Positions 12,247-17,801 of a DNA stretch of 39,972 bases are shown piece after piece. The stretch is from an uncultured Bacilli bacterium (lineage in GTDB: Bacteria > Bacillota_I > Bacilli_A > RF39 > UBA660), in the NCBI GenBank assembly GCA_905235045.1, contig CAJOJO010000003.1:1-39972 (forward strand). The letters are read 5' to 3'. The notes below the pieces were generated by a model. That model worked only from the letters and a program-made list of their open reading frames with translations, was not told the DNA's origin and made no database searches. The translations under genes were made by a program, and so were the position numbers. How positions within the stretch are numbered: position 1 is the first letter of the stretch; every line of letters starts with the position of its first letter.

Positions 12247-12948
12247 ATGTTTAAAAGAATTTTGAAGTATTTATTTAAAGATTTCTATATTTTTACAGCA
12301 GCTTATTCTAATAATGTTTTTCCTGATCCGTTAACTAAGGAAGAGGAAAATGAATTACTAGAAAAAATGCGTTTAGGGGATAAAGAAGCAAGAAATAAAC
12401 TAATTGAACATAATCTAAGATTAGTTGCGCATATTGTAAAAAAATATGATAAAAAAGCAGAAGATAGTGATGACTTAATTAGTATTGGGACAATTGGCTT
12501 AATAAAAGGTATTGATAGTTTTTCTAGTCAACATGGCACAAGAATAACTACTTATTCAGCACGTTGTATTGAGAATGAAATACTTATGTATTTTAGAAGT
12601 AATAAAAAAAACAGTAAAAATATTTCTTTAAACGAAATGATTGGTTTTGATCGCGATGGTAATGAAATAACATTTTTGGACATTTTAAAAACACCAGATC
12701 CAGAATTTGATATGAAACTTCATGAAAAACAAAATATTGATAAATTAAAAAAATATTTTAATATTTTAAATAATAGAGAAAAAGAAATTATGATTGCTAG
12801 ATATGGTTTAAATGGAGAAAAAGAAGTAACTCAAAAAGAAATTGCTTCTTCTTTAGGAATTTCTCGAAGTTATGTATCAAGGATTGAAAAAAGAGCTTTA
12901 ACTAAATTACTTAGAGAATTTATTAAAAATAAAGATATAAATGATTAA
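12247..12948 (+). CDS. sigK: Sigma-K-type RNA polymerase sigma factor
   Basis: 233 residues. Region 2 reads ARNKLIEHNLRLVAHIVKKY and DLISIGTIGLIKGIDSF; region 4 carries the helix-turn-helix KEIASSLGISRSYVSRIEKRA. These blocks are close to the sporulation factor SigK of Bacillus/Clostridium. The N terminus before NNVFPDPLT (KYLFKDFYIFTAAYS) is hydrophobic, like the SigK pro-sequence that must be cleaved for activity. The gene is intact, not split by a skin-type element. No other sporulation genes are recognised here, so it may serve sporulation or be a repurposed relic. Ribosome site gaggtga; it follows the efp terminator and precedes a T-box operon. Confidence 0.8.
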   Translation: MFKRILKYLFKDFYIFTAAYSNNVFPDPLTKEEENELLEKMRLGDKEARNKLIEHNLRLVAHIVKKYDKKAEDSDDLISIGTIGLIKGIDSFSSQHGTRITTYSARCIENEILMYFRSNKKNSKNISLNEMIGFDRDGNEITFLDILKTPDPEFDMKLHEKQNIDKLKKYFNILNNREKEIMIARYGLNGEKEVTQKEIASSLGISRSYVSRIEKRALTKLLREFIKNKDIND

Positions 12949-12989: not shown

Positions 12990-13184
12990 ATATTTGTTTG
13001 GAAGAGTATTTAATTATTTGTATTTTAGAGAGAATGTATTAGGTGGAAGCATTTATATAAAAATTAAAGAAGACACTAAACGTTAAATAATCGTATATCT
13101 GCGTTAAAGATTAATGAGTATAGAAATATCTATAAATTAAGGTGGCACCACGGTTAATCCGTCCTTAAATTTTAGGTATTTTTT
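12990..13184 (+). promoter_or_regulatory. T-box leader (Asp, possibly also His) of the AAA+/hisS/aspS operon
   Basis: T-box consensus AAGGTGGCACCACGG at 13139-13153, with CCGTCCTT at 13159-13166 as its antiterminator partner. Stem I can close with GTTTGG (12996-13001) against CTAAAC (13076-13081). One A before that helix sits GAC (13072-13074), an Asp codon by the same geometry as the Ile leader; CAC (His, 13074-13076) overlaps it. The terminator is weak (CCTTAAAT / TTTTAGG) but followed by seven T's. Confidence 0.88.
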
Positions 13185-13202: not shown

Positions 13203-15200
13203 ATGGAAGAAAAGTATTATGGTATTTTAATGCATAGAGTAGCACTTGATGAAGGATTATATGTATTTAAACCAAAAACCTTAATTGAAGGTTATTTAGT
13301 AGAAGAAGAAGAAAATATAACTTGTTTTATGGATAATAATGATTGTGAATATTATTTGGCCACTGATTCATATGTTTTAGATACTGATGAAGATATGGTT
13401 GTTGGGTACCCAATTAGTGAAAGTGAATTACTAGCTAAATTCCCAGAATATGAGTTAGATGATGCTAAATCAATGTATATTGGTGATGCCTTTGAGCACA
13501 TTCATTTAGGTTGTCTTATGTATGATACCGGTGAAATTAAAATAACACCAACTAATTTACAAGAGTATCTTATTAAAATGAATGAATTAGATACCAATGA
13601 AGAAGTAGTGGAAGCTGAATTTAATTTTGAAGAAAATAATAATCTAACTGGTTCAGCTAATAGTGAAGAAGCGGAAGCAAAAGAGTGCATTTTTTTGAGT
13701 ATGGACTATTTTAAAAAGCTAATTGAAATTGATAACTTCGAAGTATTAAAAACCGCCTTACAAAATGCTTATAATGTAGCTAATGAAACATATCAAGAAC
13801 TTGAGCAACAAGCAGAAAAATCTTTAGAAGAAATATATGATCACGTATATAATAGTATTTTAAATATGGATAATCTTACGCAAATGAAAAAAGCAATTAG
13901 TAAAGTTAAGCATATTTACTCAGATGAACTTTCTAGCTTAATGCATAATAGTGAGGATTCAAATGAAAGTATAAAAGAACTTCATACTATTTGTGATCCA
14001 TATTATTTCTTAATAAGAACTGATGATATCAAAGTATTAAAAAGAGAATTTAAAGCTCTTAAAAAAACAACTATTACTAAATTACAAACCTTAGATCCAG
14101 AAATTCAAGAAGAAATCGCAAAAGAATTAAAAGAAATGGCGATTGAAAAACCTAAAGTTAAATTTGATGTTCAAGAGATTAAGAAACATTTTGATGAGCG
14201 TATTATTGGCCAAGAAGAAGCTAAAAAAGACGTTATTTCCGCTATTTATATGAATAAATTAAATAGTGATTCTGCTAATAAAAATAACTGTTTATTATTA
14301 GGACCAACAGGAAGTGGTAAAACATTACTTGCCGAAACTGTTGCTGAATATTTTGATATGCCAATTGAAATTATTGATACAACTCAATTAACTGTACCAG
14401 GATATGTAGGTGCTGATTTAGAGGATTTCTTAGAGAGATTACTTTCTAAAGCTAATGGTGATATTAAAAAAGCTGAAGAAGGTATTGTTGTTTTTGATGA
14501 AATAGATAAAAAAGGAACTGATAGTAATGGTGATATATCTGGTAAAGGTGTTTTAAATACATTACTTCCATTTATTAGTGGAACAACTTATGATGTTAAA
14601 TATAATGGTCGTGTAGTTCATTTTGATACATCAAAGCTAACTATTTTTGCTACTGGCGCATTCACTGAAACATTCAATAAAAATATTTATAATGGGACTA
14701 GTATTGGTTTTGGAAGTACAGTAGAAACTAAAAAAGAAGATATAGAATATTCAACAATAACTCGAGAAGATTTAATTAAGAAAGGCAATATACCTGCCGA
14801 ATTAGTTGGTCGTTTTGCCATTATTACTCAATTATCAGGTCATACCTTAGAATCATTAAAAAGTATTCTAATTAATTCTGATAGAAGCGCTTTATTATCG
14901 GAAAAAGAAAAATTAGCTAATATTGGTATTGAGCTAAGTTGGACAAATGGTTATTTAGAAGCAGTTGCTAATGAAGCAATTAAATTAAAAACTGGTGCTC
15001 GTAGTTTAAAAAGTATTGTTGATAAATCAATAAAACAAGTTAGATGGGAAGTAATTAGTAATTTAGATAAATATAGTGGTATTATCTTAACTGAACAAAC
15101 AGTTGCTGATAATTTAAATTGTTTATTAGTTGATAAAAATGGTGATACTAAAGCATTTAAAGATGAAATTGAAAAGACAAAAGTATTAGTAAAAGAATAA
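13203..15200 (+). CDS. ClpX-like AAA+ unfoldase with an unrecognised N-terminal half
   Basis: 665 residues. From about 325 on it follows ClpX: IIGQEEAKKDVISAIYMNK, Walker A GPTGSGKT (367-374), pore loop GYVG (400-403), Walker B VVFDEIDK (429-436), IGFGS (501-505, matching the ClpP-docking IGF loop) and sensor 2 GARSLKS (Arg600). The ClpX zinc-binding domain is absent. Residues 1-325 contain an acidic globular part (start MEEKYYGILMHRVALDEGLY) and a charged helical region, neither of which I recognise. The RKH-loop region is shortened. Likely an ATP-driven unfoldase delivering substrates to ClpP; partner and substrates are inferred. First gene after the T-box; hisS starts 11 nt downstream. Confidence 0.8.
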   Translation: MEEKYYGILMHRVALDEGLYVFKPKTLIEGYLVEEEENITCFMDNNDCEYYLATDSYVLDTDEDMVVGYPISESELLAKFPEYELDDAKSMYIGDAFEHIHLGCLMYDTGEIKITPTNLQEYLIKMNELDTNEEVVEAEFNFEENNNLTGSANSEEAEAKECIFLSMDYFKKLIEIDNFEVLKTALQNAYNVANETYQELEQQAEKSLEEIYDHVYNSILNMDNLTQMKKAISKVKHIYSDELSSLMHNSEDSNESIKELHTICDPYYFLIRTDDIKVLKREFKALKKTTITKLQTLDPEIQEEIAKELKEMAIEKPKVKFDVQEIKKHFDERIIGQEEAKKDVISAIYMNKLNSDSANKNNCLLLGPTGSGKTLLAETVAEYFDMPIEIIDTTQLTVPGYVGADLEDFLERLLSKANGDIKKAEEGIVVFDEIDKKGTDSNGDISGKGVLNTLLPFISGTTYDVKYNGRVVHFDTSKLTIFATGAFTETFNKNIYNGTSIGFGSTVETKKEDIEYSTITREDLIKKGNIPAELVGRFAIITQLSGHTLESLKSILINSDRSALLSEKEKLANIGIELSWTNGYLEAVANEAIKLKTGARSLKSIVDKSIKQVRWEVISNLDKYSGIILTEQTVADNLNCLLVDKNGDTKAFKDEIEKTKVLVKE

Positions 15201-15211
15201 GGAGGAATAAT

Positions 15212-16501
15212 ATGATTCAAAAACCAAAAGGAACATATGATGTGTATAGTGAAAAAGGAAAAACTATTAGTTATATTGAAGAATTACTCAAAGGAATCAT
15301 GGAAAAATATAATTATGAATATATTCGTACACCAATCTTTGAAGCTAGTGAATTATTTCATCGTGGGGTAGGAGAAACTACGGATATTGTAACTAAAGAA
15401 ACATATGATTTTATTGATCGTGGTAATAGAAATATGACACTACGCCCAGAAGGGACAGCTGGCGTTGTAAGAAGTTTTATTGAAAATAAAATGTATGGTG
15501 AAATATTACCAAGAAAAGTATGGTATTATGGGCCAATGTTTCGTTATGAAAGACCACAATCAGGTAGATTTAGAGAATTCTATCAATTTGGAGTAGAAGT
15601 ATTTGGTAGTGATAATCCATTATTAGATGCTGAAGTAATTAGTATTCCAGTTAATTTATATCGTATGTTAGGTTTAAAAGGTATTAAAGTTAATATTAAC
15701 TCTTTAGGAGATAATGAATCGAGAAATAATTATCGTGAAGCTTTAATTAAATATTTTGAACCACATATTAATAATTTATGTGAAGATTGTCAGGAGAGAT
15801 TTAAGAAAAATCCTTTACGTATTTTAGATTGTAAAATAGATGGTGAATCAGACATTATTAAAAATGCACCTACTACCTTAGACTATTTAAATGATTCTTC
15901 TAAAGAACACTTTGAAAAAGTTAAAAATTATTTGGATGCAATGGATATCCCATATACAGTTAATCCAAATGTAGTTAGAGGATTAGATTATTATACTCAT
16001 ACAGTATTTGAAGTAGAAGCTGATATAAAAGATTTTGGTAGTCAAAATGTATTATGCGGTGGTGGAAGATATAATGGTTTAGTTGAAATGATTGGGGGAC
16101 CTAAATGTAGTGGTGTCGGATTTGCTTTAGGTTTAGAACGTTTATTAAATGCTATAGAAGCTGAAAAAATAGTTTTACCAATTAATGATGGAATTGATAT
16201 TTATTTAGCGCCAATGAGTGAAAATGAAGTTTCATATACTATTAAATTATTAAATACATTAAGATTAAATGGTTTTATAGTAGAAATGGATACTAATAAT
16301 CGAAAGTTATCTAATAACTTTAAACAAGCTGATAGGTTAAATGCTGAATATATAGTTATTATTGGTGAAAATGAAATAAAAAATAAAGAATTAACAATTA
16401 AAAACAATCATACAAAAGAAGAAACTAAAGTAAAAGAAAATGATTTAGTAGATTTTTTTGATGAACATGAATGCACTGGAGGTTGTTGTCATGAAGATTA
16501 A
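15212..16501 (+). CDS. hisS: Histidyl-tRNA synthetase
   Basis: 429-residue class II synthetase. Motif 1 region IRTPIFEASELFHRGVGE; motif 2 YYGPMFRYERPQSGRFREFYQF; HisA block VRGLDYYTHTVFEV; motif 3 GVGFALGLERLL; C-terminal anticodon-binding domain from about residue 330. The extreme C terminus is Cys/His-rich (HECTGGCCHED), and this odd tail overlaps the aspS ribosome site and start. Ribosome site ggagg, 11 nt after the AAA+ gene. Confidence 0.96.
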   Translation: MIQKPKGTYDVYSEKGKTISYIEELLKGIMEKYNYEYIRTPIFEASELFHRGVGETTDIVTKETYDFIDRGNRNMTLRPEGTAGVVRSFIENKMYGEILPRKVWYYGPMFRYERPQSGRFREFYQFGVEVFGSDNPLLDAEVISIPVNLYRMLGLKGIKVNINSLGDNESRNNYREALIKYFEPHINNLCEDCQERFKKNPLRILDCKIDGESDIIKNAPTTLDYLNDSSKEHFEKVKNYLDAMDIPYTVNPNVVRGLDYYTHTVFEVEADIKDFGSQNVLCGGGRYNGLVEMIGGPKCSGVGFALGLERLLNAIEAEKIVLPINDGIDIYLAPMSENEVSYTIKLLNTLRLNGFIVEMDTNNRKLSNNFKQADRLNAEYIVIIGENEIKNKELTIKNNHTKEETKVKENDLVDFFDEHECTGGCCHED

Positions 16502-17801
16502 TGTTAATGAATTAAATAATTATTTAGACCAAGAAATAACGTTTAGTGGTTTTGTTGACGCTATCAGAGATAAAAAATGGGTTATGTTTGTAATCTTAAG
16601 AGACAATACTGGAAAAGTACAAATGACTATTGAAAAAAGTGATGAAAATAACCAAAAATTATTAGACATTATGACTAATTTAACTGTTGAAAGTACAGTT
16701 AAAGTAACTGGTAAATTAGTTAGTAATGAAGCTGTAAAATTAGGTGGTATTGAAATAATTCCTAGTACTATAGAAGTTACAAGTATGGCTCAGCCACTTC
16801 CATTTGATTTTAATAATTTAGATGGTGTTTTAATTGATACCCGATTAGATTATCGTTGGTTAGATTTAAGAAATGAAAAAAATATGTTGGCTCGTCAAAT
16901 AGAATCAACAATGGTTCAAGCAATGCGTGAATTTTTATACAATAATAACTTTACGGAAATTCACACACCAAAATTAATTGGTACTGCCTCTGAATCAGGA
17001 AGTAGTGTATTTGAACTTAAATATTTTGATCGAAAAGCTTATTTAGCTCAATCACCACAATTTTATAAACAAATGGCGATGGCCGCTGGAATGAATCGTA
17101 TTTTTGAAGTAGCGCCTTGTTTTAGAGCGGAAAATTCTAATACCAATAGACATGCTACTGAATTTACTTCATTTGATTTAGAATTTTCTTATATTGATTC
17201 ATATGAAGATGTTATGTCTTTAGAAGAAGATTTATTGATTGCTGGTTTAACTAAAGTTAAAGAATTATATGGTGATAAAATAAAAGAAGTATTTAATAAA
17301 GAAGTTATAATTCCTACTAAACCATTTCCAAAAATGCGATTAAAAGACTTATATCAAGAATTACATGAAAGATATAACTTTGATATACCAGAACATGATA
17401 TAGGTGATATGAATGCTGAAGCCGAAAAATTAACTTATAAATTAGCTTTAGAAAAATATAATTCTGAGTTTATGTTTATTGTTGATTATGCAGCTACTAA
17501 AAGGCCATTTTATCATATGCGAGATGAAAATGGTGTTTTACAAGGCTATGATTTAATATGGCGAGGAACAGAAATAACATCTGGTTCCCAAAGAGAGCAC
17601 AGGTTTGATGAATTAGCTAAAAATGCTAAAGAAAAAGGCTTAGGAAAAGATGTCGAATTTTATTTACAATTCTTTAAATATGGATGTCCGCCACATGGTG
17701 GGTTTGCCATCGGTGTTGATCGCTTAACAATGTTATTATTAGGTTTAACTATTAAAGAAACACAATTTTTATTTAGAGGGCCTAATCGTTTAGAACCATA
17801 A
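16491..17801 (+). CDS. aspS: Aspartyl-tRNA synthetase, archaeal/eukaryal type
   Basis: 436 residues from ATG 16491, chosen because ggagg lies 10 nt upstream; the longer frame from 16458 lacks a site. It overlaps the hisS stop by 11 nt, suggesting coupling. An OB-fold anticodon domain (about 1-100) leads straight into the class II core: motif 1 EIHTPKLIGTASESGSSVF, AQSPQFYKQMAM, motif 2 FEVAPCFRAENSNTNRHATEF, motif 3 GFAIGVDRLTMLLLG. It lacks the large GAD insertion of the ~590-residue bacterial enzyme, so it belongs to the archaeal-type AspRS. Such enzymes can be Asp-specific or also charge tRNA-Asn; I cannot tell which. Confidence 0.92.
   Translation: MKINVNELNNYLDQEITFSGFVDAIRDKKWVMFVILRDNTGKVQMTIEKSDENNQKLLDIMTNLTVESTVKVTGKLVSNEAVKLGGIEIIPSTIEVTSMAQPLPFDFNNLDGVLIDTRLDYRWLDLRNEKNMLARQIESTMVQAMREFLYNNNFTEIHTPKLIGTASESGSSVFELKYFDRKAYLAQSPQFYKQMAMAAGMNRIFEVAPCFRAENSNTNRHATEFTSFDLEFSYIDSYEDVMSLEEDLLIAGLTKVKELYGDKIKEVFNKEVIIPTKPFPKMRLKDLYQELHERYNFDIPEHDIGDMNAEAEKLTYKLALEKYNSEFMFIVDYAATKRPFYHMRDENGVLQGYDLIWRGTEITSGSQREHRFDELAKNAKEKGLGKDVEFYLQFFKYGCPPHGGFAIGVDRLTMLLLGLTIKETQFLFRGPNRLEP

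Follow-up and report, generated by a model that had tools for sequence, protein, structure and literature searches.

T-box leaders respond to uncharged tRNA. ClpX and ClpA dock ClpP through their IGF loops (PMC9035409). In a 39,972-nucleotide stretch of DNA from an uncultured Bacilli bacterium (GenBank assembly GCA_905235045.1, contig CAJOJO010000003.1), the whole of which we call the window, a relative of the second system lies directly behind an example of the first: the order is T-box leader, AAA+ ORF, hisS (11 bases after the ORF) and aspS, which overlaps hisS.

A ClpX-type motor with a new N-terminal region

The AAA+ ORF, at 13203-15200 on the forward strand, encodes 665 amino acids and has an ATG start with AGGAGG upstream. 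Its parts are as follows.

13203..15200, + strand: ClpX-type AAA+ unfoldase with a novel N-terminal region, 665 aa (ORF, profile matches and phmmer)
13203..13595, + strand: novel beta-rich N-domain, residues 1-131 (AlphaFold2 of this part alone, pLDDT 95.2, pTM 0.85)
13605..13667, + strand: disordered linker, residues 135-155 (AlphaFold2 pLDDT < 50)
13701..14141, + strand: helical bundle, residues 167-313 (AlphaFold2)
14166..15122, + strand: ClpX-type AAA+ module, residues 322-640 (ClpX profiles, phmmer to PDB)
14301..14324, + strand: Walker A GPTGSGKT, residues 367-374 (motif in alignment)
14400..14411, + strand: pore-1 loop GYVG, residues 400-403 (Y in 80 of 88 relatives)
14703..14711, + strand: IGF loop, the ClpP-docking tripeptide, residues 501-503, within GTSIGFGST 498-506 ([LIVM]GF in 73 of 88 relatives)

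Against the ClpX profiles, the AAA+ half scores 222 bits with NF003745 (cut-off 359) and 203.7 bits with TIGR00382 (cut-off 370.75). Because both scores lie below the equivalog cut-offs, the window protein is ClpX-like but falls outside the curated definition of ClpX. Residues 305-637 match ClpX in a phmmer search of the PDB (E = 3e-55), and a single-sequence scan of the genome contigs with the window protein returned one weak AAA match. The motor is intact: Walker A, DEIDK, GYVG, IGF, a GRF arginine finger (R537) and a sensor-2 GAR are all present, and the motor residues are invariant or nearly so across 88 divergent relatives. At the IGF position of these ClpX-type proteins the G is kept in 83 and about 83 are xG[FYIL]-like; the loop is absent from five. 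A previous reading of this DNA from the sequence only had recognized the GYVG pore and the IGF loop, and both are there, the latter kept despite strong divergence. In some genomes the ClpX-like gene is duplicated in tandem or present in as many as three copies (L058:6096-9505; G043); the IGF loop is missing from one of the tandem copies. Elsewhere, AAA+ genes are split across two frames (L043:847-2415, L153:3673-4862, L068:5164-6782); these are either decaying genes or assembly errors.

The sequence-only reading also held that about 325 unrecognized residues replace the zinc domain of ClpX, and this was borne out. Searches of Pfam, PHROGs and the PDB sequences with residues 1-321 of the window protein, and with 81 homologous N-terminal regions, brought up nothing convincing; no zinc-domain match was found in the window protein, whose residues 1-131 are instead predicted to fold as an unrelated beta domain. 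The AlphaFold2 model was built on an alignment of the homologous N-terminal regions, and residues 1-131 were also modeled on their own because a Foldseek search with the whole N-terminal model against the PDB and BFVD gave matches to the helical bundle only, none of them significant (best E 0.028). The beta domain alone, though confidently modeled, gave no significant Foldseek match in the PDB either (best E 0.48). The predicted beta-rich N-domain is thus new at the sensitivities of the Pfam, PHROGs, PDB and Foldseek searches, and none of these identified it as a known adaptor domain. We found no account of such N-domain unfoldases in the literature covered, which leaves out most subscription journals; as far as that search goes, this is an undescribed, recurring variant of ClpX-like unfoldase.

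When 385 genomes of the order were searched with a profile of the N-domain, 69 gave matches, all within the host's taxonomic family. Across the class, matches were likewise confined to that family, apart from a marginal one in another family (G671, E = 8.5e-4) that we do not trust. The domain is not tied to the ClpX-type motor. It is also found on AAA+ proteins of the CbbX/SpoVK type (Pfam AAA PF00004 plus AAA_lid_6 PF17866), a second motor that the sequence-only reading had no means of seeing, and on small proteins without any AAA+ module (L139, L162, L148). In three loci (L135, L137, L157), a ClpB/ClpC-like double AAA+ protein of about 700 aa without a Clp_N domain adjoins or lies near the CbbX-type N-domain protein; the host's own genome encodes a 698-aa relative of it on contig C9.

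A tRNA-Asp leader and the hisS/aspS neighborhood

Around the unfoldase gene, the operon has these features.

12990..13169, + strand: T-box leader (RF00230) reading tRNA-Asp (cmscan 100.5 bits, gathering score 93)
13072..13074, + strand: specifier codon GAC (Asp), as GAA-GAC-AC in the specifier loop, at the equivalent position in related leaders
13141..13149, + strand: T-box antiterminator core GGTGGCACC, whose UGGC pairs with G73 of tRNA-Asp (leader sequence)
15212..16501, + strand: hisS (TIGR00442, 498.6 bits)
16458..17801, + strand: aspS, non-discriminating (NF003483, 451.5 bits; ORF from the first TTG, with the start likely the ATG at 16491)

Nine related T-box leaders have an Asp specifier at the corresponding position, GAC in all but one (GAU). 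The bulge UGGC matches the G73 discriminator of tRNA-Asp and tRNA-Asn, not that of tRNA-His. Given the GAC specifier and this fit between UGGC and G73, the leader should sense the charging of tRNA-Asp. Expression of the unfoldase had been proposed to follow both Asp and His tRNA charging; the Asp part of that proposal holds, and the His part is contradicted by the specifier and the bulge. Asp-linked expression of the unfoldase is very likely. The 3′ end of the leader folds no better than shuffled sequence (z = -1.3), so thermodynamic folding does not demonstrate a switch between terminator and antiterminator.

Several further observations concern the surroundings of the operon. A SigK-like sporulation sigma factor lies directly 5′ of the T-box (window positions 12247-12948), and the genome is only about 0.9-1 Mb in size. 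In one genus, a second T-box leader is found 3′ of aspS, before a gene for a 190-aa protein (L153:674-912, L159:1580-1818). The HisRS of the window has a Cys/His-rich C-terminal tail (16440-16501; DEHECTGGCCHED), as do those of L145 (CCHDEDCNCHHEHDCDC), L107, L128, L146 and L148, and the HisRS of other genomes is without one; such tails perhaps bind metal.

Is the position beside the synthetase genes specific to the window? In a genus-level sample of 36 genomes that have the gene, 9 place it no more than three genes from hisS or aspS and on their strand, with about 0.5 expected; the corresponding binomial P of 2e-9 is naive in that it ignores shared ancestry. The two synthetase genes are the commonest neighbors of the ClpX-like gene, and they occur with AAA+ genes in several arrangements: AAA-hisS-aspS (the window, L036, L038, L043, L107, L111, L114 and L135, and L128 without an adjoining aspS), hisS-AAA (L045, L051), aspS-AAA (L047, L055, L151 and L163, and L145 with hisS further up) and hisS-aspS-AAA (L070, L146, L152). 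CbbX-type genes precede hisS in L128, L135, L137, L150, L153, L154, L159 and L379. An Asp-type T-box or T-box core stands directly 5′ of the AAA+ gene in 11 leaders from as many genomes, seven of them before a ClpX-type motor (the window, L036, L038, L043, L107, L111, L114) and four before a CbbX-type motor (L150, L153, L154, L159), the latter all from one genus. The motor can therefore be swapped while the N-domain stays beside hisS. The coupling to hisS/aspS T-box operons that the sequence-only reading suggested looking for elsewhere does recur in many genera, though in most genera that possess the gene it is found at another place.

This last point bears on the alternative that the position is incidental: a gene that moves around would lie near hisS-aspS through ancestry, and its coupling to the T-box would have no physiological meaning. 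In roughly three quarters of the genera with the gene it lies away from hisS/aspS, in places that are stable yet differ from one another, and five of the linked CbbX-type cases belong to a single genus. Linkage is also clustered on the AAA tree, where parsimony needs 11 steps and shuffled labels need about 18, and ancestry thus accounts for part of it. Against an incidental position, the linkage involves several gene orders, both motors and the N-domain-only proteins, and at least 11 changes are required on that tree. We regard this explanation, which is compatible with ClpP docking, as somewhat unlikely.

C-terminal tails, ClpP and the nature of the family

The two motors have a further feature in common. 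All 10 intact CbbX-type genes with the N-domain encode an [IL]GF C-terminal tail, whose three residues are those of the ClpP-docking motif; in nine it lies within four residues of the end (KKLGF, KNIGF, KKIGF, KHIGF, KTIGFK, KQIGFHK), and the tenth ends in EIGFALTKK. No such C-terminal IGF/LGF tail was found in the 21 CbbX-type homologues without the N-domain from the host's taxonomic family. The tail is not restricted to N-domain proteins: among 25 CbbX-type proteins of the class that are without the N-domain, 2, both from other families (L344, L346), end in KKKIGF or TKFGF, which may be further ClpP-docking tails. One of the 21 homologues, a double CbbX-type AAA+ protein of 972 aa in G069 (L208:4741-8252), contains SKFGF about 30 residues before its end, and its gene shares 4 bases with the second clpP of that genome, a divergent one. 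Divergent second clpP genes, with a Lys-rich N-terminal extension, are also found in G090:C28, G052:C39, G037:C10 and G083:C8 (L216-L219), where they do not adjoin an AAA+ gene of the ClpX-like/N-domain family.

We surveyed 98 genomes of the host's taxonomic family, one per genus. ClpP is encoded in 89, a gene for a ClpX-like counterpart of the window protein was detected in 37 and not in the other 61, and none has a ClpX above the equivalog cut-off. Canonical ClpX occurs in 38 of 149 genomes of the wider class, all outside the host's taxonomic family. The host's own assembly (78% complete) contains a single ClpP (C25:3053-3589, 270.9 bits), so that the claim of plausible docking does not founder on a missing ClpP. 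An ordinary ClpX was not found in this assembly, where the ClpX-like gene is the only one. Also encoded are a ClpC-like protein of 769 aa whose loop reads VGF, likely another ClpP partner and to that extent a point against the window unfoldase in this role, and the ClpB-like protein of contig C9, which has no docking loop.

These data allow a different reading of the motor, as a ClpP-independent remodeler of specific partners such as HisRS/AspRS or their complexes, comparable to CbbX on Rubisco, with the IGF loop as a relic. Presence of the ClpX-like gene is not associated with ClpP (33 of 37 genomes with the gene have ClpP, against 56 of 61 without it; Fisher P = 0.73), four incomplete assemblies have the gene and no detected ClpP (G033, G043, G057, G082), a few members lack the loop, and the same N-domain is borne by cousins of the CbbX type. 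A relic, however, fits poorly with a loop that 73-83 of 88 proteins have kept despite wide divergence, or with the independent appearance of an IGF/LGF tail at the C-terminus of N-domain-bearing CbbX-type proteins, and we judge this remodeling role to be distinctly unlikely. Taken with the known docking by IGF loops, the internal loop, the C-terminal tails and the overlap with clpP in G069 make ClpP docking the most economical prediction for both motors, and docking of the window unfoldase is likely.

Could the gene instead be the lineage's housekeeping ClpX, drifted after loss of its zinc domain? The lack of canonical ClpX in all 98 family genomes and the one ClpX-like gene in the host's genome would fit, yet a gene that goes undetected in 61 of those 98 genomes appears dispensable, and its N-domain is common to another motor family. 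When cellular and phage ClpX are placed in one tree with the ClpX-like family, the family falls nearer to phage ClpX-like proteins than to the cellular ClpX of its class. The grouping of the family with two viral sequences has a support of 1.0 and the family node 0.54, on long branches, so this placement argues only weakly against a drifted ClpX and gives no more than a hint of phage affinity for the AAA module. We consider it quite improbable that the gene is simply such a housekeeping ClpX. That the gene is a phage or mobile-element factor, or a defense gene parked in a core operon, is very improbable: despite the tree and the phage relatives of the AAA half, none of 80 viral loci examined has the N-domain (matches in viral contigs are confined to the AAA half), nor does any plasmid record, and synteny is stable within genera at a locus that is a core translation operon.

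Proposed mechanism and comparison with known systems

The domain make-up, the motif conservation, the Asp-type T-box, the recurring operon and the N-domain on a second motor are direct observations, and they have mechanistic implications. We propose that uncharged tRNA-Asp stabilizes the T-box antiterminator and that, on Asp shortage, the unfoldase would be transcribed together with HisRS and the non-discriminating AspRS. A lineage-specific receptor module, formed by the beta domain, the flexible linker and the helical bundle, would capture clients, the GYVG loops would draw them through the hexameric ring, and the IGF loops would dock this ring on the genome's single ClpP. We thus think it probable that the window encodes a ClpX-type hexamer that unfolds proteins for ClpP, has a new receptor domain and is co-induced with HisRS/AspRS by uncharged tRNA-Asp. 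Because the gene is found repeatedly in an Asp-sensing hisS/aspS operon, the destruction of proteins may be coupled to a shortage of amino acids, and proteolysis driven by amino-acid starvation is plausible. Against a starvation response count the 61 of 98 family genomes in which the gene went undetected, its other positions in most genera and its lack of association with ClpP. As the N-domain tracks hisS/aspS on either motor or alone, our guess is that the clients are translation proteins or the synthetases themselves.

More tentatively, and at rather less than an even chance, all these proteins could form one undescribed ClpP-feeding family, with one receptor domain on interchangeable motors, docking through the tail in the CbbX/SpoVK-type members and an Asp T-box response to shortage. 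If so, partners of ClpP can be rebuilt by exchanging receptor domain and motor, a CbbX-type ring can acquire ClpP docking via a short C-terminal tail, and a proteolytic unfoldase can sit directly under a sensor of tRNA charging. It also suggests a way in which reduced genomes without ClpX, of which there is a large group, may still steer ClpP.

The locus can be compared with several described systems. With ClpX (TIGR00382/NF003745), the window protein shares the AAA+ module at residues 322-640, with GYVG, IGF, the GR arginine finger and the sensor-2 GAR; in place of the C4 zinc-binding N-domain of ClpX it has about 320 unrelated residues, and it scores far below the equivalog cut-off. In sister genomes, motors of the CbbX/CbxX-CfqX/SpoVK type (PF00004 + PF17866) bear the window protein's N-domain, whereas its own motor is of the ClpX type; the N-domain proteins of this type end in IGF/LGF, unlike the 21 homologues without the domain. 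The leader shares the GAC specifier and the UGGC/UGGU bulge with the Asp T-box leaders (RF00230) that precede hisS-aspS, but here the first gene of the operon is an AAA+ unfoldase. Finally, partners of ClpP of the ClpC/ClpE type are likewise unfoldases that feed ClpP through an [LIV]GF loop (PMC9035409), a docking predicted here; they differ in having a pair of AAA+ modules and, in most cases, a Clp_N domain, and their N-terminal region is unrelated to that of the window protein.
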